This document shows positions 19,531 to 29,471 of a stretch of 53,733 nucleotides of DNA, in pieces. The position numbers and the translations under genes were made by a program. Origin of the DNA: Clostridia bacterium (GTDB lineage Bacteria > Bacillota > Clostridia > Oscillospirales > QAKW01); NCBI GenBank assembly GCA_017482195.1, contig JAFUNM010000011.1, positions 1 to 53,733 of the forward strand, written 5' to 3'. Numbering within the stretch: position 1 is the first letter of the stretch; every line of letters begins with the position of its first letter. A model generated the notes under the pieces. It was given only the letters and a program-made list of their open reading frames with translations, was not told the origin of the DNA and did no database searches.

Positions 19531-20196
19531 ATGCTTTGGCAAACCTTTCTCACCGCTCTTTTTTCGGCTGCGGCGCTCTTTCTGCTGACCAAGCTGATGG
19601 GGTATCGGCAGATCTCACAGATGAGCGGCTATGATTATATCAACGGCATCACCATCGGTTCCATTGCTGCAGAATTAGCCTTCGGCGGCTTTGAACATTT
19701 TTGGCCCCGCACCATTGCCCTGCTGGTTTTTGCCGCTTTTACCATTGCCCTTTCCATGGCGACCGACAAATCGGTACGCCTGCGCGCCTGGGTCTCCGGT
19801 AAACCACTGGTTCTGATGGAAAGGGGGAAGCTTTAGAAAGAGAATTTTAAAAAGGGAAAGATCGATGTTCATGAGTTTTTATCCCTCTGCCGCCAACAGG
19901 GATATTTCGATCCCGCCCAATTGGACACAGTCTATTTAGAGCCGGACGGACAGCTCAGCTGCTCTCCAAGACCGATCCACCGCCCGGCGACACCTCAGGA
20001 TCTGGGTCAGACTCCGGCCGCTGAGCCTCTGCCGCTGGAGGTCATTACAGATGGTGTAATTTTACACCAAAATCTCCAAAAGCTGGGCTTTGAGGAGCAA
20101 TGGCTGAGAAAGCAACTGCAAGAACAAAATGCTCCGCCCTTTGATAAGATCTTTCTTGCCTTAGTCAAAGAAGACGGCACCCTTTCGGTCTTTTGA
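19531..20196 (+). pseudogene. DUF421 (YetF-like) membrane protein interrupted by one amber codon
   Basis: The frame encodes a 221-residue DUF421 protein: N-terminal membrane helices (about 3-20, 35-52, 60-78), then the cytoplasmic domain common to YetF-like proteins. A single TAG at 19834-19836 cuts it after GKL. The same frame stays open afterwards for 119 codons and continues the family pattern (KIDVHEFLSLCRQQGYF, then TVYLEPDGQLS). In relatives a tyrosine commonly stands where the TAG is. There is no frameshift or other damage, so it is a very recent nonsense mutation, a sequencing error, or a read-through stop. Ribosome site AAAGGAG precedes the ATG. Confidence 0.8.
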
Positions 20197-20809: not shown

Positions 20810-20836
20810 AAAAAGACTGCTTTAAGCAGTCTTTTT
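20810..20836. terminator. Bidirectional terminator between amidase and fibre operon
   Basis: AAAAAGACTGC (20810-20820) pairs with GCAGTCTTTTT (20826-20836), giving a T-run in both directions. The last codons of the convergent pilin-like gene lie within it. Confidence 0.85.
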
Positions 20837-21904
20837 CTTTATGTATGGGATCACGATCGTCGGGATCAGCAGGCCCCAGAGGAAACGCTGATCGATACCG
20901 CCGGTATAGGGGGATTCGGGCGGTTCTTCTTCAGGCGGCTCCGGCTTGGGAACGCCCGGTTCGGAAACGACCGACGGGATATAGGTATTATTAAACTCCG
21001 CGGTGATCTGATAGACTCCGTCTTTCTCCTTGACCGCGGTATTTTGCGACCCGGTCACATTGCCGATCTCCAGCTTTCCGTCCATATCCGTATCGGTCAC
21101 CTGAAGGATAAAAGAATGAACGTTCTGATCATAAACGATGTTTTCAAGGGTGCCCGCAGCCTCGGTCATACGGAAGGTATAGGTACCCACCGTATCAAAG
21201 GTCAGCTCTTGCACCAGATCACTGAAATCAAAAACATTGAATGCGGGATCTGCAGCATTATAGGTAACGGTTCTGGTACCCAGCGGCACCCAGGTATCGT
21301 TTGCGGCATATTGCTCTAAGGTAAAGGAGAAGGTATCTCCCGCCTGCCAATCGCGCCCCGAAAGGATCTTGATACCGCCAACGTTCACCTGCAGCGGCTG
21401 CACAGCCGCAGGACTATAGATATTTACAAATTCCAGCAGCACGCTGCCCTCTTCGGCAACGGTAATCTCCCGGGTGGCAATACTATCCTTCACTGCAAAG
21501 CCGCTGCCCTCCTTCTGCACCTCGGTGACCATCACCTCGGTGCCTGCGTCGATCCCTTCAATGCCGAAAGAGCTGCCGGGATGAATCGAAACAGTAACGG
21601 AACCGTTTGCATCGGTCGTTATCGCCCCTGCGGTGGTCTGCAGAGTGGTATTGGCATAAAAAGTGCCGAAATTCAATTGAAACGCAAAGGTGATCTGCTC
21701 CGGGATCACATAATCCTCCCCCAGCGGATGCTCCACGCTCTTGCGAAGCCACAGAGTATTCATGATCTTTTCCGTGGGAGAAAAGGTGTTTATCAAAGGA
21801 TCCGATTGTGTTACAATAAGTCCGTAGGTGCCCTGCACCGCAGAAGTCAGGAGCATTAGCAGCGAAAACAGCAACGCAAGCCGCCTCGATATTGTTTTTT
21901 TCAT
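20822..21904 (-). CDS. Pilin-like surface protein with SPYTG sorting signal
   Basis: A 360-residue exported protein. The signal peptide (MKKTISRRLALLFSLLMLL...) leads into TYGLIVTQSDPLINTF, the same pattern as the SipW-dependent signals of the upstream genes. Two Ig-like beta domains follow; the second (about 196-310, GGIKILSGRDW to QVTDTDMDGKLEI) resembles the Spy0128/FctA pilin isopeptide domain. A proline/glutamate-rich linker leads to SPYTG (331-335), a hydrophobic span and KKK, the layout of a sortase signal with S in place of L. I start at the ATG at 21904, after AAAGGAGG. Last gene of the fibre operon; it probably ties the fibre to the wall. No sortase gene lies in the window. Confidence 0.8.
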   Translation of the reverse strand: MKKTISRRLALLFSLLMLLTSAVQGTYGLIVTQSDPLINTFSPTEKIMNTLWLRKSVEHPLGEDYVIPEQITFAFQLNFGTFYANTTLQTTAGAITTDANGSVTVSIHPGSSFGIEGIDAGTEVMVTEVQKEGSGFAVKDSIATREITVAEEGSVLLEFVNIYSPAAVQPLQVNVGGIKILSGRDWQAGDTFSFTLEQYAANDTWVPLGTRTVTYNAADPAFNVFDFSDLVQELTFDTVGTYTFRMTEAAGTLENIVYDQNVHSFILQVTDTDMDGKLEIGNVTGSQNTAVKEKDGVYQITAEFNNTYIPSVVSEPGVPKPEPPEEEPPESPYTGGIDQRFLWGLLIPTIVIPYIKKKTA

Positions 21905-21941
21905 AGGAACAAGCGCCTCCTTTCGCAGAATTAAAAATACA

Positions 21942-21983
21942 GCAATCAAAAGGCACAAAACCAGGCTTGTGCCTTTTGATTGC
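21942..21983 (-). terminator. 17-bp hairpin inside the fibre operon
   Basis: A perfect 17-bp stem (21942-21958 with 21967-21983), 8-base loop, followed on the minus strand by TGTATTTTTAATT. The imperfect T-run suggests partial termination, which would reduce expression of the last, pilin-like gene. Confidence 0.65.
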
Positions 21984-22017
21984 CGCCTATCCCTCACAAG
22001 GAGAGATAGGACGGACT
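21983..22017 (-). repeat. 35-bp intergenic hairpin repeat, copy 1
   Basis: Read on the minus strand this runs from AGTCCGTCCTATC to GGGATAGGCGG and folds as CCTATC..C/G..GATAGG. It matches copy 2 at 24062-24096 in 32 of 35 positions. It follows the stop codon of the second large beta-helix gene by 6 bases. Confidence 0.7.
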
Positions 22018-22023
22018 GAAAAA

Positions 22024-24033
22024 TTACTTATTGTTGTAGATAACGGTTACGCCGTCGTGCACAGCAGTGCCGTAAACACCCTGACCGCCACCATAAAGTT
22101 GGTCGAATACGCAAAGGATGTTGTGATCTTCGCCCTCATTATGAACATGGGTATCATCAACGACTCTATTTCCGTTAGCGTCTGTCGCCACACCATATCT
22201 CGGATTGCTATAAGCAGAGTTGCTTACACCCGCCTGCACTCTTACATAAGGCCAGTTCTGTCCTGCAAACTCGCAATAAGTATAATTTGCCCAATCACCA
22301 TAAGTAACGGTGACATTCTCGCAAGTAAGCTGCGGAGCAGCGGCATATGTAGTTCCATCACTTGTCTGTGTTTTTCCGGTATTACCAATCAGCATACCGC
22401 AGCGACGGTAAGCATACCACTGATAAGAAGATGTAACATCGTTATAGCCGTCAATTCTGCAAGCAACATCACAATCTTTCATATAAATAGTAGCCGAACC
22501 ACCTGCTCCGCCGATCACACCGCCGGTGGAATTGTCAAAATCACCCCATTGGGCAGCAATCGTGGTAGAAGCATCTAAATCGCAGTTGATATATTTATGA
22601 TTACCGGATGCCCAGCCGACAATACCGCCGGCATAATACTGATAATCTGCACCCTGAGAGTTGGTGACGGTAATGTTTTCAAAGGTCATATCTCCATAAG
22701 CACATCCTGCAATCGTACCGCAGATTGCGCTCTCTCCGGAAATGTTTGCACCGTCCATAATAAGATTCTTAATAGTCGCATCTTCAACCAAACCGAACAA
22801 TCCCAGTCCCAAATCACCATAGTAATATCCGTTATCTAAAGCCCAAGTGTTTTGAGAAAGGTTGTAGATAGTGTGTCCCTGACCGTCAAAAGTTCCCTTG
22901 AAAGCGTCATCATTTTTATAGGAACCGATAGGATCAAAACAAATCACATTACCTTCGTCATCTTCGCAGTACAAGTCCATATCTGTGTTAAGATTGATTG
23001 TTTTGCCTGCAAAAGTAGTGCCACCGTCAACAAGTTCAGTCAAACCCGCAAGCTGCTCTGCAGAAGTCAGCGTAAAGGCGGCAGCAGTCTCGTTGTACCA
23101 AGAGGTATCGACAGTGCCGTCCCATATATCAACCAGGCTTGCTTCATACATGTTAATTGCATCGCCGAACCAGGAAGCGAGGTTGATGCCGTTATCGCCA
23201 ACGGGGAATGCTTCATCCAAAGCGGTTGCGGCATCGGCAAAGCCATCCGCCTGAACGGCCTGGGAAACGACGAGAATGTCATACTGACCATCATCATTGC
23301 CATCAAGAGCCTCAACATCCTCATTGGTAGCTTCGGGTTTCATATATATTTGCAAAAGAGAAGGATAAGAAACCGCGCCTGGAGCGAGGATGCCGGTAGG
23401 GTTAGAGGCGGGGCCAAGGTAGGTGGCACTCATAACAAAATACTCGCTGCCGTTGATCTCAACATCGGTAGTAATGGTCTTCCAAGACCAATGTGATTTG
23501 TTAACGTTTGTCATAATCACGTTTTCAAAATCATCGGCATCAACATCGCCCTGTTCAAGAGCAATATAGGTGCGGACATAAGCATCACTTCTGCCGGTAT
23601 TTTTAACGAAAACAAACTTATCCTGGACATTCTTTACGCTATCATCAAAAAGATGATTAGAACCGGAAGCGCCGACCTGTCCCCAAGATTGCTGATGAGA
23701 CCCTTCACCCGAAGGCTTCTGATTGCCGTTACGGTCATCCCACTTAATGGTGCTATCGGCAAAAACCGCGGGATAAAGGGGCTTATCCTGTGTAAATTCC
23801 TGTAGCTTATCGGGGGTATAACCGTATTTATCAGTTTCATCGGTAGATACCCATTTTCCGTTCTCATCCACAACACGCTCATATTCAAACTGTGCGATAG
23901 ATACATTACCCATCGCCATTACATTGACGTCGCTATCGGTTGAGGTTAAGTATGCGACAGTACCACCGATAGCAAGTGCGGCAACAAGTATGTAGGCAGT
24001 CCCCATTAAAAGTACTTTCTTGAGTTTCGACAT
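22024..24033 (-). CDS. Large SipW-dependent surface protein with GLUG-like beta-helix
   Basis: A 669-residue secreted protein. The signal segment (about 1-36) ends GGTVAYLTSTDSDVNVMAMG, the SipW/TasA-type pattern. Residues about 40-290 are a fibre-like module shared with the next gene upstream (ERVVDENG, LFDDSVKNVQDKFVFVKNTG, ILVVSQAVQADGF). Residues about 310-600 contain repeats of the GLUG type (GLFGLVEDATIKNL, GGIVGWASGN, GGVIGGAGGS), expected to fold as a right-handed beta-helix and often found in adhesins. No LPXTG or membrane tail. Strong ribosome site AGAGGAGG. Probably an assembled or adhesive fibre subunit; the binding target is unknown. Confidence 0.78.
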   Translation of the reverse strand: MSKLKKVLLMGTAYILVAALAIGGTVAYLTSTDSDVNVMAMGNVSIAQFEYERVVDENGKWVSTDETDKYGYTPDKLQEFTQDKPLYPAVFADSTIKWDDRNGNQKPSGEGSHQQSWGQVGASGSNHLFDDSVKNVQDKFVFVKNTGRSDAYVRTYIALEQGDVDADDFENVIMTNVNKSHWSWKTITTDVEINGSEYFVMSATYLGPASNPTGILAPGAVSYPSLLQIYMKPEATNEDVEALDGNDDGQYDILVVSQAVQADGFADAATALDEAFPVGDNGINLASWFGDAINMYEASLVDIWDGTVDTSWYNETAAAFTLTSAEQLAGLTELVDGGTTFAGKTINLNTDMDLYCEDDEGNVICFDPIGSYKNDDAFKGTFDGQGHTIYNLSQNTWALDNGYYYGDLGLGLFGLVEDATIKNLIMDGANISGESAICGTIAGCAYGDMTFENITVTNSQGADYQYYAGGIVGWASGNHKYINCDLDASTTIAAQWGDFDNSTGGVIGGAGGSATIYMKDCDVACRIDGYNDVTSSYQWYAYRRCGMLIGNTGKTQTSDGTTYAAAPQLTCENVTVTYGDWANYTYCEFAGQNWPYVRVQAGVSNSAYSNPRYGVATDANGNRVVDDTHVHNEGEDHNILCVFDQLYGGGQGVYGTAVHDGVTVIYNNK

Positions 24034-24061
24034 ATATTTTCCTCCTCTGGAAAAGAAGCAC

Positions 24062-24096
24062 CCGCCTATCCCTCATAAAGAGGGATAGGACGGACT
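24062..24096 (-). repeat. 35-bp intergenic hairpin repeat, copy 2
   Basis: Same element as at 21983-22017, here with a perfect stem CCTATCCCTC/GAGGGATAGG. One difference from copy 1 changes a C-G pair to a U-G pair, so the stem can still form in RNA. It lies between the two large beta-helix genes. Confidence 0.7.
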
Positions 24097-24119
24097 TACA
24101 GTTGCTGATGGGTTTATGA

Positions 24120-25682
24120 TTATTCGTCAACAATAGTGACGTTCGCAGGATCCAACTGTGCTTTAATTTGAGTCAAACCGTTGAAATCAGAATCAACCGT
24201 ATTGGTGCCTTTAAGATTTACGACATAGGTGCCGCCCTGAGAACCATCAATGGAAACCGCTGCAACATGGATACCGTTCCAAGTCTTGGCTGCATTAGTA
24301 GCGTTGAAAGTACAATCCTTAACGGTAACAGTTTGATCAACTTTTGTACCATCCTGGAAAACAAGGAGTGCACGGCCGTCGGTATTAAAGGTACAGCTAT
24401 CAAACACCGCCTTATACGCACCGCCTACACGGAGATAGTCGTTGGTGATGTTGATTTCACAATTGTAAAACGCACTGTTGCCGGTGCCAAGGTTGTAGGT
24501 ATTCTGAATAATACAATTATTATAGGTACCGCTTAAACGGGCATACCCTGCATAAACATTGCTGTTTGTTTTGATGGTAATACCATTAAAAGTAACAGTG
24601 GAACCGTCAAAATTATAGTCTAACTGACCATTGGCTTCACCCTGTCCTGCGGGAACGATCTCAAGAATAGCGTCCTTGGTGCCGTTGATAATCAAAGTTT
24701 TGCCCTTGGCAGCAGCGGGAGCGTGATAAGTGCCGGGGTTGAGCCAAATTTCGGTCTCGCCAGTTTCAATTGCGGCAGCAAGTTCGGCATTGTCAGAAAC
24801 TGGATAACCAACGGGAACACTGATACCGCTAAACCATTCAACAGCATTTTCTGCTGATGTACCGAAAGCGGTATCAAGAGCGGTCTGTGCATCAGTAAAG
24901 CCTTTTGCTTGAACAGCCTGAGAAAGCACGAGGATATCCCAAGTATTGCCGAATTTTGCGCAATCTTCGTTGGTGGTTTTGGGATCAAGATATACCTGAA
25001 GGAGAGAAGGACGGGAAACCTCACCGGGCTTCAGTACCTCATTATAGGTCATTTCATACAAGCCATAACGAACACCGTCGATATTGACGTATCCAAGTTT
25101 GTAAGATTTGGTGCCCTTGTCAGCTTCGCCGGAAAAGTCGTCGGACTGCTCTACGGCATTAAAACGATTGTTGCTGTTGAAACTGGTGTGGATGATACCA
25201 CTTGCAATGCCCTCCGGAGTCTCAATGGCGATAATGGTACGATAATAAGCATCGGTCTTTCCGGTGTTTTCAACAAAAACGAACTTATCGACAACGTTCT
25301 TCATAGAATCGTCGAACAGGTCGTTGGAGCCGGGAGCTCCAACCTGATTCCAAAGCTGCTGGAACTCATCCCAAGCAGTAGTCTTTGCATCGTTGGTGTA
25401 AACAGCAGGAAGAGCAGGCTTAGCCTGAGTGAACTCCTGCAGTTTATAGGATTCGGTAATTCCATAGTTTTCGGTGAAATCTTCGCCGAGAACACCTTTG
25501 ACGGGATTGCCGTTCTCATCCACAACACGCTCATACTCGTGTTGTGCAATGGAGATATTGCCCATCGTCATGACGTTTACATCACTATCGGTGTCGGTAA
25601 GGTAAGCCAGAGTTCCGCCGATGGCAATAGCAGCCACGAGTACGAAACTCAAACCCATAAGAAATACATTTTTCAGTTTCAT
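24120..25682 (-). CDS. Large SipW-dependent surface protein with pectate-lyase-like beta-helix
   Basis: A 520-residue secreted protein, paralogous to the 669-residue neighbour over its first 290 residues: signal segment ending GGTLAYLTDTDSDVNVMTMG, then EYERVVDENG, LFDDSMKNVVDKFVFVENTG and ILVLSQAVQAKGF. The C-terminal 220 residues differ and show short repeating strands (TVTFNGITIKTNSN, NCIIQNTYN, YNCEINITNDY, DSCTFNTDG, VKDCTFNAT), a pattern of parallel beta-helix proteins. No catalytic motif is evident and no anchor is present. The ribosome site is AAAGGAAC. The two paralogues look like one fibre module carrying two different passenger domains. Confidence 0.78.
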   Translation of the reverse strand: MKLKNVFLMGLSFVLVAAIAIGGTLAYLTDTDSDVNVMTMGNISIAQHEYERVVDENGNPVKGVLGEDFTENYGITESYKLQEFTQAKPALPAVYTNDAKTTAWDEFQQLWNQVGAPGSNDLFDDSMKNVVDKFVFVENTGKTDAYYRTIIAIETPEGIASGIIHTSFNSNNRFNAVEQSDDFSGEADKGTKSYKLGYVNIDGVRYGLYEMTYNEVLKPGEVSRPSLLQVYLDPKTTNEDCAKFGNTWDILVLSQAVQAKGFTDAQTALDTAFGTSAENAVEWFSGISVPVGYPVSDNAELAAAIETGETEIWLNPGTYHAPAAAKGKTLIINGTKDAILEIVPAGQGEANGQLDYNFDGSTVTFNGITIKTNSNVYAGYARLSGTYNNCIIQNTYNLGTGNSAFYNCEINITNDYLRVGGAYKAVFDSCTFNTDGRALLVFQDGTKVDQTVTVKDCTFNATNAAKTWNGIHVAAVSIDGSQGGTYVVNLKGTNTVDSDFNGLTQIKAQLDPANVTIVDE

Positions 25683-25707
25683 AGTTTTGTTCCTTTCATA
25701 AATTTAC

Positions 25708-26337
25708 TTACGCATTCACAGGGATCTTTGCCCAGGCATCGGCAGCGCTGGTGATATTGCTGTCGCGCTGCACCGCATAAGCGGTCACGATCAACTTAGG
25801 ATAGTTGTTTGCACCGTTTGCATCCAAGGCATTGAGCTGTTCCTTGGTCACTGTTTCTTTTACGGTGACGGCATCCTCTTTGAGCACGCTGAATTCCTGC
25901 TTTTCGGTAGATTTTTCCACCGCTCTCCAATACACGCCGTCTGCATTTTCAAGCGCGGTCCAGCCTTCCGCCACTTCATATTCCATAAAGGTATTGAAGT
26001 TTTCGGATTTTTCCAACTTCACAAACAGCCAGGAATTCTCGCTGTTTTCCAAAACGGTCACCTTGGGGTCTTTGGTGATGGTATTGCCGGGCAGCATAGG
26101 ATAGAGATTGGTATTGGGATTACCGTCGCCGTCTTTGTTGGTATCGGTCTCGGTGAGATCGATATTGATATCCCCGTAGGTAAAGGTATTCACAACGGGA
26201 TCGGTATTGGTGATCAGCCAGGCGGCGGTGCCGCCGATGATGGTGCAAAGAACTAAAATAAGGGACAGCAGCATCACCAAAAGTTTGGCGCCTTTGATGT
26301 TCTTTGCACGCTTAACGGAATGTTTGCCTCTCATCAT
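25708..26337 (-). CDS. TasA/camelysin-like fibre subunit B
   Basis: A 209-residue secreted protein. A basic N-terminus (MMRGKHSVKRAKNIKGAK) and hydrophobic helix end in GGTAAWLITNTDPVVNTFTYGDINIDL, the SipW-dependent signal pattern. The rest is a small beta-rich domain with the family's YPMLPGNTITKDPKVTVLENSE and SWLFVKLE, as in TasA/CalY proteins that polymerise into fibres. It lies between the other small subunit and the large subunits in the operon. The ribosome site AAAGGAG fits the ATG at 26337; a second ATG directly after is possible. Confidence 0.82.
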   Translation of the reverse strand: MMRGKHSVKRAKNIKGAKLLVMLLSLILVLCTIIGGTAAWLITNTDPVVNTFTYGDINIDLTETDTNKDGDGNPNTNLYPMLPGNTITKDPKVTVLENSENSWLFVKLEKSENFNTFMEYEVAEGWTALENADGVYWRAVEKSTEKQEFSVLKEDAVTVKETVTKEQLNALDANGANNYPKLIVTAYAVQRDSNITSAADAWAKIPVNA

Positions 26338-26414
26338 TTCGTGTTTCTCCTTTCTTCAAAATTTATTTCAACAGGCGGAAAAACACGAATTTAACCGTCT
26401 GATTGAAAGCATTT

Positions 26415-27059
26415 TCAACCGATCTGGGCATCAAAGGCAGTCCAGGCAGCATTCTCATCATCAAAGCCCGCCTTCTGAATAGCATGACCCACCACATTGA
26501 TCTCAAGATCCGAAATGGTCTTCAGCTGCGCGCCGGTCACATCGCCGGGCAGGGTGATGGTATCAAAGAGGGCATCCAGAGTGATATCCCCATCGGAGGC
26601 GTCAACGGTCTCATAATAACGGAACTCATAAGTAGCGGTATTTGCCTCCACATTGATCTTCTCGGTGCTGACCCACACATCCTTATCCCAACCGCTCACA
26701 AAATACTGCGGCAGAAACGGAGTGCCAAAGATGGCGGTCAGTTCTTCATAGCGGTTGATGGTCACGAGCATCCGCACATAGGATTTCTCACTGCCCTTCA
26801 CAACAGTCATAGTGGGGTCCTTCACATAGGTCATGCCGGGAATGAGGTGATAGTTATTCTCCTTCACACGGGGAACACCCTCTACGGGAACACCGTCTGG
26901 AGTCACCTTGGTCTCATCCAGGGTGATATCCACCTGACCGACGGTAAAGGTATTGGTCACCGTATCCTGGGCTGTAAGATAGGCAAGGGTACCCAGCACC
27001 GATGCGGCGATCAGCAGAACCGCGCAAAGAGACAGTCCTAAGACTTTCAGCTTTTTCAT
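26415..27059 (-). CDS. TasA/camelysin-like fibre subunit A
   Basis: A 214-residue secreted protein. The signal peptide MKKLKVLGLSLCAVLLIAA ends GTLAYLTAQDTVTNTFTVGQVDITLDE, the classic SipW-dependent pattern. The beta-sandwich contains LIPGMTYVKDPTMTVVKGSE and YVRMLVTINRYEEL, as in TasA/CalY fibre proteins of biofilm matrix. The ATG overlaps the sipW stop codon (ATGA), so enzyme and first substrate are translationally coupled. Ribosome site AAAGGAG. Likely the major fibre subunit because of its position next to sipW. Confidence 0.84.
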   Translation of the reverse strand: MKKLKVLGLSLCAVLLIAASVLGTLAYLTAQDTVTNTFTVGQVDITLDETKVTPDGVPVEGVPRVKENNYHLIPGMTYVKDPTMTVVKGSEKSYVRMLVTINRYEELTAIFGTPFLPQYFVSGWDKDVWVSTEKINVEANTATYEFRYYETVDASDGDITLDALFDTITLPGDVTGAQLKTISDLEINVVGHAIQKAGFDDENAAWTAFDAQIG

Positions 27060-27589
27060 AGTGTTTTCTCCTTTTTGTTTTGATTTTTATCCTCAGAGAG
27101 CATGCTGAGCATGACCTCAGAAAGAACAAGAATAAGCGCCACCGCAACGGTAACGATCCTGCCTGCCGGCTGCATAATAAATGCTGCAAGATAACCCAGC
27201 AAAGGAAGGCAGAAAACCACCCTGCCGATCACGCTGTCATACCCTACCAGGGAGCCATCGACAATCTCATTGGCATCCCCCTTGGTGCGAAAACGGATCG
27301 TTTGAGGATCCTCCTCATCGGGCACCAATTCAACGATGCGGTGGGTGGCAACGGTACCGTTTGCCATTCTGAAGGTGATCACATCTCCGTTTTCCAGCGC
27401 TGCAGGATCCGTTTCTTTTACATAGACAAGGGATCCGGTGGGATAATCCGGCTCCATAGATCCGGATAAAACAGTATAGACCTGCAGACCGAATAATCGG
27501 ATACCCATCAGAAGAAAGGCAAGCAAAACCACCCCGCCCATCAGCATATTGGAGAGTATTCTCCAGATTTTAATTGCTTTTTGACTCAT
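27056..27589 (-). CDS. sipW: SipW-type signal peptidase I
   Basis: A 177-residue membrane serine peptidase of the ER/SipW type. An N-terminal membrane helix (about 12-36) precedes SGSMEP with the nucleophile Ser44. The partner residue is His83 in GTVATHRIVE, rather than the lysine of ordinary bacterial signal peptidases. FRTKGDANEIVDGSLV and a C-terminal membrane helix (about 137-163) complete the family pattern. SipW enzymes process TasA/CalY-type precursors, and all five exported proteins downstream carry matching signals. Ribosome site GAGGAAGAG. It overlaps a short upstream frame and the next gene. Confidence 0.92.
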   Translation of the reverse strand: MSQKAIKIWRILSNMLMGGVVLLAFLLMGIRLFGLQVYTVLSGSMEPDYPTGSLVYVKETDPAALENGDVITFRMANGTVATHRIVELVPDEEDPQTIRFRTKGDANEIVDGSLVGYDSVIGRVVFCLPLLGYLAAFIMQPAGRIVTVAVALILVLSEVMLSMLSEDKNQNKKEKTL

Positions 27590-27809
27590 GACTCTTCCTC
27601 ATCGGTTCCGTATTTCCAAAGGGCAACAACGAAAAACAAAGTCTCCTACGCCGGCGCCGCCGATCGTGATGCACCGCACCTTCGGTATGACTAATCTCAT
27701 GATTGATATAGCGCAGTTTCCGGGATGATCCGTTCACAAAGTCTGTCAGCCCCGCTGCTACCGTAAACAGCAACAACAGAGCTAAAATAATGCTTTCTTC
27801 ATTTTTCAT
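27570..27809 (-). CDS. Possible small membrane protein at the head of the fibre operon
   Basis: A 79-residue frame with ribosome site GGAG 6 bases before its ATG. Residues 6-24 form a membrane helix (SIILALLLLFTVAAGLTDFV), followed by a polar tail with seven consecutive arginines. It overlaps the sipW start by 20 bases. No family recognised. The tail's odd composition may mean that only the first 40 residues are conserved, or that the frame is a leader for sipW translation rather than a working protein. Confidence 0.45.
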   Translation of the reverse strand: MKNEESIILALLLLFTVAAGLTDFVNGSSRKLRYINHEISHTEGAVHHDRRRRRRRLCFSLLPFGNTEPMRKSHESKSN

Positions 27810-27985
27810 TTAAGTCTCCGCTCCTATCGGAGAGTTGATCCATGCGATACAGATTGATTTAAAAACGATCATTCCTAAAATAGGCTGCAGCAAATTTCAA
27901 GCAATCTCCTCTTTTTATTTTTGATCTGAATGAATCTATTCCTTGAGGTAATACTGAAGATAGAAAACCGTCGGTTCTCCGTTCG

Positions 27986-28001
27986 TTTATTACTCACATA
28001 A
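27986..28001. repeat. Inverted repeat left (IRL) of the invertible segment
   Basis: TTTATTACTCACATAA on the plus strand, the exact reverse complement of 29403-29418. On the minus strand the core reads TTAT-GTGAGTA-ATAA: short inverted arms around a 7-bp asymmetric spacer, the usual layout of a tyrosine-recombinase crossover site. It lies between the integrase terminator and the fibre operon leader. Confidence 0.85.
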
Positions 28002-28012
28002 GAGAGTGAAGC

Positions 28013-28055
28013 TTAAAAAAATAAGAAGACAGCCTACTCTTTTGCTGTCTTCTTA
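28013..28055 (-). terminator. Integrase terminator
   Basis: Stem TAAGAAGACAGC (28022-28033) with GCTGTCTTCTTA (28044-28055), 10-base loop, followed on the minus strand by a run of T. It prevents recombinase transcription from entering the fibre operon in the present orientation. Confidence 0.85.
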
Positions 28056-28080: not shown

Positions 28081-29181
28081 TTACTGCCCCACCGAAAGAG
28101 AAAGCTTTTCCATATTCCTCTGCTTCAACTCAAAGGAAGAATGAACATAGCGGTTCAGGGTGGTTTTTACATCGGCATGGCCCAGGATCTCCGAAAGAGT
28201 CTTGATATCAAATCCCACCTCCACACAGCGGGTAGCAAAGGTGTGCCTTAGGGTATGGAAGGTCACCTCCTCCAGACCCAGCCGTCGAGTGATCTCCCGG
28301 AATTTCTGTTGCACCGTTCGGGGCTCGGAATGAACGCTTTTAGGTGCATGGATCACATAGCCTCCGCTCTGCCGAAATCTCTCTATATAAGGAAAGAGAA
28401 AGGAGGGCAGCGGCACGATACGTCTGGAGGTTTTGCTTTTGGGCGAATCGATGATAACCTCGGTTTTTCCCTCTGCTTTGCTCAGACGCTGCATGGTCTT
28501 ATTGACCACAATATAGGTCTCGGTCATATCCTCCCAAAGCAGGGCACAAAGTTCCCCGATCCGAAGCCCGGTATGCAGCGCCAGCAGAGCGCCGAACTTA
28601 AATAGATCCATATCGGTCAGCAGTTCCGCGGTCAGTCGCTCCTGCTCTTCTCTTGAGAGCACCCGCGCTTCCTTCTTTTCTTCCCGCAGAAAGGAGACCT
28701 TCGGCATGGAAAGCCCGTATTCTTCCTCCGCAAAATCAAAAGACAATCCCAAAACGATCAGAATGTCATTTACTGTTTTGACCGAAAGGGTGCCACCCCG
28801 CAACCTGCCCCCGACTCTTTGTTTTTCTGCAAATCGCTCGATCATCTCCCGGGAAACCAATGCCAGCGGTACTGATCCGATCTCCGGCTGGATATGATTG
28901 CGGCATAAGCCTTCATATTTACAATAGGTTGATTTTTTCACTTGAAATTGAACATGATTCAGCCATCGCGCCAGTAATTCAGTGACCCGAAACTGGGCAG
29001 AATGGTGCTGCTGCCGGATTGGCGAAAGCAGAAAATATTGCTGCTTTTCCTTAACCGCCCGGTAGCTTTCAGCATAAACAGATCCGTATTTCTTCTTACC
29101 GTCGGGACCGATCTCCCTTACATACCGTGCTTCCCATCGTCCGTCTTTTCGTTTGTAAATACATTCACCTCGTCTGGGCAT
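28081..29181 (-). CDS. Tyrosine recombinase / integrase (Tn916-Int-like layout)
   Basis: A 366-residue site-specific recombinase. The N-terminal GECIYKRKDGRWEARYV resembles the arm-binding domain of Tn916-type integrases; a core-binding SAM-like domain follows (about 65-155). The catalytic domain holds Arg207 (HTGLRIGE), Lys250 (PKSKTSR), His309 and Arg312 (HTLRHTF), His335 (LGHAD) and the nucleophile Tyr345 (TLNRYVH), so it should be active. No excisionase, relaxase or phage gene is nearby, which speaks against a conventional integrative element. It lies wholly between the 16-bp inverted repeats and is the obvious catalyst for their inversion. The ribosome site AAAGG is 10 bases before the ATG. 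Confidence 0.9.
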   Translation of the reverse strand: MPRRGECIYKRKDGRWEARYVREIGPDGKKKYGSVYAESYRAVKEKQQYFLLSPIRQQHHSAQFRVTELLARWLNHVQFQVKKSTYCKYEGLCRNHIQPEIGSVPLALVSREMIERFAEKQRVGGRLRGGTLSVKTVNDILIVLGLSFDFAEEEYGLSMPKVSFLREEKKEARVLSREEQERLTAELLTDMDLFKFGALLALHTGLRIGELCALLWEDMTETYIVVNKTMQRLSKAEGKTEVIIDSPKSKTSRRIVPLPSFLFPYIERFRQSGGYVIHAPKSVHSEPRTVQQKFREITRRLGLEEVTFHTLRHTFATRCVEVGFDIKTLSEILGHADVKTTLNRYVHSSFELKQRNMEKLSLSVGQ

Positions 29182-29310: not shown

Positions 29311-29339
29311 TTGCAAAATCGAAAAAAATATATTATAAT
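29311..29339 (+). promoter_or_regulatory. Invertible outward promoter
   Basis: TTGCAA (29311-29316) and TATAAT (29334-29339), 17-bp AT-rich spacer, with an A-rich upstream stretch. The start would be near 29346. No plus-strand gene lies downstream: the reading meets the right inverted repeat at 29403 and then the galE terminator. Two ACTTGAT motifs 13 bp apart follow the start and may bind a regulator. Confidence 0.75.
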
Positions 29340-29402
29340 AGGTTCTCACTTGATGGAATTACTTGATTTCTTTGCGGTAAATTCGACCTTTTCGCATCTC
29401 GT

Positions 29403-29418
29403 TTATGTGAGTAATAAA
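29403..29418. repeat. Inverted repeat right (IRR) of the invertible segment
   Basis: TTATGTGAGTAATAAA on the plus strand, the exact inverted copy of 27986-28001. Here the arms around the 7-bp spacer extend to TTTAT/ATAAA. Outside the repeat lies only the galE terminator, starting about 10 bases away. Confidence 0.85.
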
Positions 29419-29428
29419 TGAAAATAAA

Positions 29429-29471
29429 AAAGCAGTAACCGGAAGGCGTAACACCTTCCGGTTACTGCTTT
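29429..29471. terminator. Bidirectional terminator: galE and the OFF-state promoter
   Basis: A perfect stem of about 18 bp (29429-29446 with 29454-29471), 7-base loop. The minus-strand tail is TTTTTATTTTC for galE; the plus-strand tail TTTGATTTTTT can stop transcripts from the invertible promoter. Confidence 0.85.

Follow-up and report, generated by a model that had tools for sequence, protein, structure and literature searches.

A stretch of clostridial DNA (the window: 53,733 nucleotides, contig JAFUNM010000011.1 of assembly GCA_017482195.1; here contig C62 of the metagenome-assembled genome (MAG) G000, 62% complete) carries on its minus strand, from position 27809 to 20822, seven intact and co-directional open reading frames (ORFs), named in order ORF79, SIPW, SUB1, SUB2, BIG1, BIG2, and PIL. 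It is fairly likely that they constitute a phase-variable operon for TasA-like donor-strand fibres, processed by SipW and based on a sortase-anchored, TapA-like pilin. If this is correct, the operon links SipW/TasA matrix fibres and sortase-built pili, which are usually treated as separate routes. The termini of PIL, SipW-type at the N-terminus and class-B-sortase-type at the C-terminus, suggest how a donor-strand fibre could be attached covalently to the Gram-positive wall, and the promoter-bearing recombinase cassette found upstream predicts ON and OFF subpopulations in the gut. More tentatively, the locus may stand for a widespread class of fibres of gut Clostridia, of which we found no description, combining giant adhesins, a SipW-processed and sortase-anchored pilin, switching by a recombinase cassette, and tuning by twin hairpins. 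Several bacterial families share the combination. A search of the full-text literature on SipW with phase variation, inversion, invertons, and TasA turned up no account of it, most subscription journals being outside the coverage.

The operon and its SipW-dependent products

The second gene, SIPW (27056..27589, minus strand, as are all genes of the operon), encodes a signal peptidase of the SipW/endoplasmic reticulum (ER) type. It passes TIGR02228, the model for archaeal/ER-type enzymes (92.7 bits, cut-off 51.85), and scores 106 bits against the Bacillus SipW equivalog NF046067, below the cut-off of 190. Ser44 and His83 are invariant in 75/75 aligned SipW proteins, which indicates a Ser/His rather than a Ser/Lys dyad. 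Five exported products follow. TIGR04088, which models SipW-dependent signals, recognizes the small subunit SUB1 (26415..27059) and the large protein BIG1 (24120..25682) over its cut-off, gives BIG2 (22024..24033), the second large protein, 18.6 against a cut-off of 19, and matches neither SUB2 (25708..26337), the second small subunit, nor PIL (20822..21904); 15 of 19 SUB1 relatives match it at E ≤ 0.01. A hidden Markov model (HMM) of the signal, trained on relatives with the window locus and its closest relative excluded, ranks precisely the five exported products on top among the 56 ORFs of the window, with 83.6, 80.0, 70.2, and 70.0 bits for four of them (SUB2 and BIG2 at 70) and 9.9 bits for PIL, the next ORF reaching 3.1. 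A preliminary description of this DNA had claimed a seven-gene SipW-dependent operon at 20822-27809, transcribed as one unit, with a SipW-type peptidase carrying a Ser44/His83 pair and with one kind of signal on five products. The seven genes and the dyad are confirmed, and ordinary Sec/SPI signals for most products, named there as the contrary outcome, are not what is seen: the SipW-type signal is clear in four of the five proteins, and in PIL it is divergent and weak. The single transcription unit is qualified by a terminator-like hairpin that lies between PIL and the other genes.

With their signals removed, SUB1, SUB2, and the N-terminal heads of BIG1 and BIG2 form one homologous family (hhalign E 1e-24 to 1e-48; 3e-48 between mature SUB1 and SUB2). 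In the BIG proteins this head is followed by a large C-terminal adhesin part. The family was compared with a profile built from TasA and from camelysins of Bacillota genomes, which was matched by SUB1 with E 1.7e-5, by SUB2 with 3.6e-6, and by the BIG heads with 1.5e-8, while column-shuffled control profiles reached 0.34 at best. In the alignment, the N-T-F-x-x-G-x-V-x-I of SUB1 sits on the A-T-F-x-x-G-x-L-x-L of TasA, that is, on the end of the TasA donor strand and just behind it; this strand comprises residues 28-38, and its contacts include F29, I32, and F39 (PMC9674648). The corresponding segment x-N-x-F/M-x-x-G-x-[VI]-x-I is conserved after the cleavage site in the subunits. The relationship is visible by comparison of family profiles only: direct hhalign of mature SUB1, SUB2, or BIG with TasA alone gave nothing, and no TasA was returned when PDB sequences were searched with the profile of SUB1. 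SUB1 reaches 18.7 bits with PF12389 (TasA/camelysin), under the gathering score of 22.5 and over residues 12-52 only, and 19.3 bits with the BsaA model TIGR04090, in the signal region only and short of the cut-off of 60. The AlphaFold2 (AF2) model of SUB1 is beta-rich, with a mean predicted local distance difference test (pLDDT) score of 88, and confident except at about residues 30-38. SUB1 may thus be called distantly TasA-like by its profile, the fold search having given generic matches; of the two small TasA/CalY-like subunits proposed earlier, the distant profile–profile relationship stands, without a significant match in the fold search.

Two large exported proteins had likewise been described, and they are present. 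Their designation as beta-helix proteins is a weakly supported one, the AF2 model of BIG2 having a pLDDT of 70 and no significant fold match; one relative matches the pectate-lyase-like adhesive domain PF20585, and the C-terminal parts may be beta-helical. Another locus (L118 8968-15657, genome G276) holds three tandem copies of BIG2 in one operon, and adhesin genes in related SipW operons appear to duplicate and diverge.

Relatives of SUB1 were found in 46 of the 394 genomes of the order, and 80 named loci came from scanning public genomes; most belong to MAGs of ruminant-gut Oscillospiraceae and other Clostridia, and a few to isolates (e.g., Pseudoflavonifractor phocaeensis An858 and Holdemania sp. 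Marseille-P2844). Gene order in relatives, which the preliminary description had named as a check, was counted at loci whose contig reaches far enough, and the order is strongly conserved, in roughly 90% of the 80 loci: SIPW lies upstream of SUB1 in 68/73, SUB2 comes next in 64/70, a BIG gene is found within 3 kb in 51/57, and a PIL-type gene in 18/43. Locus L032/L188 of genome G032, from another family of the order, holds the whole gene set, to which one further ORF and a third BIG gene are added, and ends in a PIL with SPPTG. The first gene of the window operon, ORF79 (27570..27809), encodes a small membrane protein of a conserved family with the motif E/K-L-x-Y-[IL]-N-x-E-I, which occurs in five further fibre loci (L032/L188, L184, L186, L190, and L251), with a long PIL in four of them.

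The probable pilin-like anchor and a candidate sortase

The start of PIL is most likely the ATG at 21904 behind AAAGGAGG and not the GTG at 21997. The protein scores 53.7 bits with PF12892 (FctA; cut-off 22.1) and 39.3 bits with TIGR03786 (strep_pil_rpt; cut-off 31.85), and it ends in SPYTG, a hydrophobic stretch, and a basic tail (KKK). The domain and the sorting signal bear out the earlier proposal of a Spy0128-like pilin with SPYTG. Two triads, K55/E128/N161 and K179/E248/N305, are invariant in four orthologues and are predicted to form isopeptide bonds. Homology between mature PIL and the SUB family was not detectable. The proposal that the pilin itself carries a SipW-type signal holds in part: PIL is fifth of the 56 ORFs by signal score, and its signal is weak and divergent. 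T26, N39, F41, and P43 are invariant in the four orthologues; among 20 PIL N-termini, 14 reach at least 15 bits for the SipW-type signal and 19 score above the best shuffled sequence.

A search for the cognate sortase elsewhere in the genome had been suggested, and a candidate is available. The sole sortase found in G000 is of class B and is encoded beside a protein ending in SPDTG, hence beside an SPxTG substrate. Class B is also the only sortase class found in G032 (97% complete, with the whole operon and SPPTG) and in G314 (99% complete), which likewise carries the operon. This restriction to class B in the three genomes argues against a pilus polymerized by class C sortase. Clostridioides difficile SrtB, a class B enzyme, cuts (S/P)PXTG peptides and leaves LPETG and NPQTN uncut (PMC4155245), and anchoring of PIL to peptidoglycan by the class B sortase would fit with this specificity. 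As a separate observation, the class B sortase of G032 is part of an ORF of 602 amino acids, in which a CinA/PncC-like domain precedes it (L160 364-2172, G032:C5).

The role that we propose for PIL has a precedent in Bacillus, where TasA fibres assemble by donor-strand exchange (PMC9674648) and TapA gives TasA its first donor strand, the complete immunoglobulin-like (Ig) fold of TapA being unable to accept one (PMC10151520). With a SipW-processed N-terminus, complete Ig-like domains stabilized by isopeptide bonds, and a sortase-type C-terminus, PIL could do the job of TapA with a covalent anchor.

The recombinase cassette and the twin hairpins

Upstream of the operon, two inverted repeats of 25 nt (27982..28006 and 29398..29422), 88% complementary and with a perfect core of 16 nt, enclose a cassette of 1.4 kb. 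It encodes a tyrosine recombinase, INT (28081..29181, minus strand; PF00589 5e-26), in which the R, H-x-x-R, and Y motifs are present, followed by a terminator-like hairpin (28023..28054, minus strand), read from the sequence, which in the present orientation is upstream of the operon. At the other end, the cassette contains an outward promoter, TTGCAA-17-TATAAT (29311..29339, plus strand), now directed away from the operon and towards a bidirectional terminator just beyond the right repeat (29429..29471), in a position to halt transcription leaving the cassette in the OFF state. In this orientation, the operon leader contains no promoter site scoring 8/12 or higher. Because the promoter faces the terminator and the leader lacks an 8/12 site, the sequenced molecule is predicted to be in the OFF state. 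Inversion in silico brings the promoter (10/12) to 255 nt upstream of ORF79.

Relatives of INT (E 1e-40) occur in 79 of the 394 genomes, and among the INT loci fetched, 28 further cassettes have inverted repeats around INT, mostly 1.2-1.5 kb apart. Outward promoters of 10/12 or better were found at the 5′ end of INT in 18 of these 28, against 2.4 expected from dinucleotide shuffles, three of them with the exact TTGACA-17-TATAAT; the counts are 3 against 2.2 in the inward direction and 0 against 0.3 at the 3′ end. Among the fibre-linked cassettes, both orientations are seen: OFF in the window, L034, L115, L141, L186, L190, L199, L204, L207, L219, L222, and L235 (no repeat was found in L199), and ON in L032, L112, L113, and L114. 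In BLASTN comparisons of L112 or L113 with L115, and of L034 with L114, the INT segment has opposite orientations with respect to sipW. Cassettes with repeats and outward promoters also adjoin genes other than those of this SipW operon (L132-L145, in G147, G007, G010, G345, G245, G210, G180, G272, G098, G139, and G033). Viral contigs yielded no relative of INT.

A promoter on an invertible segment is also known from the Salmonella hin switch and from the flagellar and cwpV (RecV) switches of C. difficile. In hin, the recombinase lies within the invertible segment. The window differs from these switches in its combination of a tyrosine recombinase inside the cassette, an outward promoter, and a SipW fibre operon as the target.

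Two further observations concern INT loci. G329 and G115, which belong to different genera, share a 12.3-kb region with an INT relative at 100% identity, and G342, from another family, matches most of this region at about 99% (L171-L173); such identity across genera suggests recent spread by horizontal transfer. In L228, mirrored copies of SIPW and SUB1 surround INT, with a 47-nt repeat inside sipW, which looks like an assembly artefact.

Within the operon, an RNA element of two adjacent hairpins, preceded by AGTCCGTCC, lies between BIG2 and PIL (21934..22020, minus strand; folding z -7.5), its second hairpin being terminator-like. A weaker copy lies between BIG1 and BIG2 (24022..24099, minus strand; 30.5 bits with a covariance model), degenerate but with the first hairpin intact. 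The strict pattern is confined to seven sites in 4 of the 394 genomes, and every one of these sites belongs to a SipW locus. Twelve copies define 29 pairs, 13 of which are changed on both sides, against a mean of 5.6 in shuffles, and none of 500 shuffles reached the observed values; the signal is lost when the pairing partners are slid by one to three columns. The covariance model revealed many more copies in related loci (L190, L207, L185, L221, L035, and others), and some weaker genome matches fall outside the known SIPW contigs. Of the 44 copies examined, 40 start within 40 nt past a stop codon, nearly always that of an adhesin gene, and they precede a further adhesin gene, PIL, or a gene for a small membrane protein. 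Nothing in 19400-29600 matches Rfam 15. The twin hairpin is thus a candidate for a new RNA family associated with a single type of operon, and our best guess is that it acts in intercistronic termination or processing, and hence in stoichiometry. An integron-like reading, in which an adhesin gene and its hairpin are moved by INT, was set aside, as arrays of the hairpin occur without INT in L185, L221, and L209.

Proposed assembly and alternative explanations

In the model that we favour, INT would flip the 1.4-kb cassette between its inverted repeats, and the cassette promoter would read into the operon in the ON orientation and into the terminator in the OFF orientation, as sequenced. When the operon is ON, SipW would cut the signals off SUB1, SUB2, BIG1, BIG2, and PIL, and cleavage would free the conserved N-terminal segment that corresponds in position to the donor strand of TasA. 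SUB1 and SUB2 would polymerize by donor-strand exchange, and the BIG proteins would join via the same kind of head and display their large adhesin parts. PIL, the Ig-like pilin domains of which are unrelated to SUB, would supply the first donor strand in the manner of Bacillus TapA, and the class B housekeeping sortase would fix its SPYTG end to peptidoglycan. Relative expression is probably adjusted by the twin hairpins that follow the adhesin genes, so that less PIL is made than subunits.

In the tapA-sipW-tasA operon of B. subtilis, one of the closest known systems, SipW is also encoded with its substrates, the subunits are small and beta-rich with a conserved post-cleavage segment, and the anchoring and nucleating partner, TapA, is cleaved by SipW, as PIL presumably is. 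In contrast to that operon, the window subunits are only distantly TasA-like, two large adhesins share their head, the anchor is a sortase-type pilin instead of TapA, and a DNA-inversion cassette replaces the control by SinR. The B. cereus sipW-TasA/CalY-CapP system similarly combines two related small subunits with a wall-associated accessory protein, all processed by SipW there; however, it is sortase-independent (PMC13082335), and CapP is not an isopeptide pilin. In C. perfringens, a sortase gene neighbouring a SipW/TasA-type operon is already known (sipW-bsaABCRSD), where srtB adjoins the operon and is not needed for polymerization of BsaA, BsaA has no LPXTG-like motif, and bimodal expression requires a two-component system (PMC7395162). 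This clostridial operon, too, encodes several exported proteins, and its bimodal expression resembles the ON and OFF states predicted for the window from sequence. It differs in that no pilin-like anchor gene has been reported for it, and SUB1 stays below the TIGR04090 cut-off. Gram-positive pili of the FctA/Spy0128 or FctB type share with PIL the domains, the isopeptide triads, and the LPXTG-like signal; unlike them, the window operon lacks a class C sortase, and PIL has a SipW-type N-terminus and is probably an anchor and not a shaft.

Several data weigh against the favoured model, and they are best considered together with the explanations that compete with it. When the first 22 mature residues are removed, SUB1, SUB2, and BIG match the camelysin profile only at E 0.004, 0.003, and 1.5e-4, respectively, and the N-terminal segment therefore accounts for much of the similarity. 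The fold matches of SUB1 do not exceed Z 7 and include generic Ig-like folds; TasA is absent from the matches listed, and the archaeal bundling pilus 7ueg stands at Foldseek rank 3 with a low template modelling (TM) score. This outcome, and the large and variable C-terminal parts of the BIG proteins, would fit an operon for separate SipW-secreted wall adhesins and matrix proteins without a common fibre, their shared signals reflecting shared processing only. We regard this as unlikely, since the heads of the BIG proteins belong with SUB1 and SUB2 to one family, which has a conserved post-cleavage segment and a TasA/camelysin profile match, and SUB2 so regularly follows SUB1. A classical pilus, with a PIL shaft polymerized by class C sortase and decorated by the SipW-dependent proteins, is the least probable of the alternatives. 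The FctA/Spy0128 domains, conserved triads, and sorting signal would suit it, and in G302 the contig that carries a homologue with IPPTG also encodes a class C sortase. Yet the operon contains no sortase, only class B, which normally anchors, was found in G000 (a partial genome), G032, and G314, and a position as last gene, behind a terminator-like hairpin, together with absence from 25/43 related operons, would be odd for a shaft protein.

The same position and the low signal score of PIL (9.9 bits, and no recognition by TIGR04088) also lend something to the view that PIL is an unrelated surface protein with an ordinary Sec/SPI signal, encoded downstream of the fibre operon. Its presence in only 18/43 related operons means that it is not obligatory; nevertheless, those 18 are SipW loci, and the rank of PIL in the window, the scores of the other PIL N-termini, and the four invariant residues make this view improbable. 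INT is not obligatory either, being present in only 9/62 related operons. Both orientations were seen between species and in no single species, the near-identical INT regions that were checked (L171-L173 and L142/L145) all have the same orientation, and the window genome is a 62% complete MAG. The absence of INT from 53/62 operons, the other genes adjoined by its relatives, and the 12.3-kb INT-bearing region identical across genera could also be explained if the cassette were no regulatory switch but an integrase unit, mobile or in decay, that had inserted upstream of the operon. To this we give similarly little credence: the repeats, the length of about 1.4 kb, and the outward promoter at the 5′ end only are common to cassettes in which INT mostly shares 40-50% identity with that of the window, the fibre-linked cassettes occur in both orientations, and a terminator lies just outside the repeat.

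Beyond the end of PIL, an ORF for a YetF-like membrane protein (19531-20196, plus strand) is broken by an in-frame TAG at 19834-19836, behind which the frame runs on to 20196.

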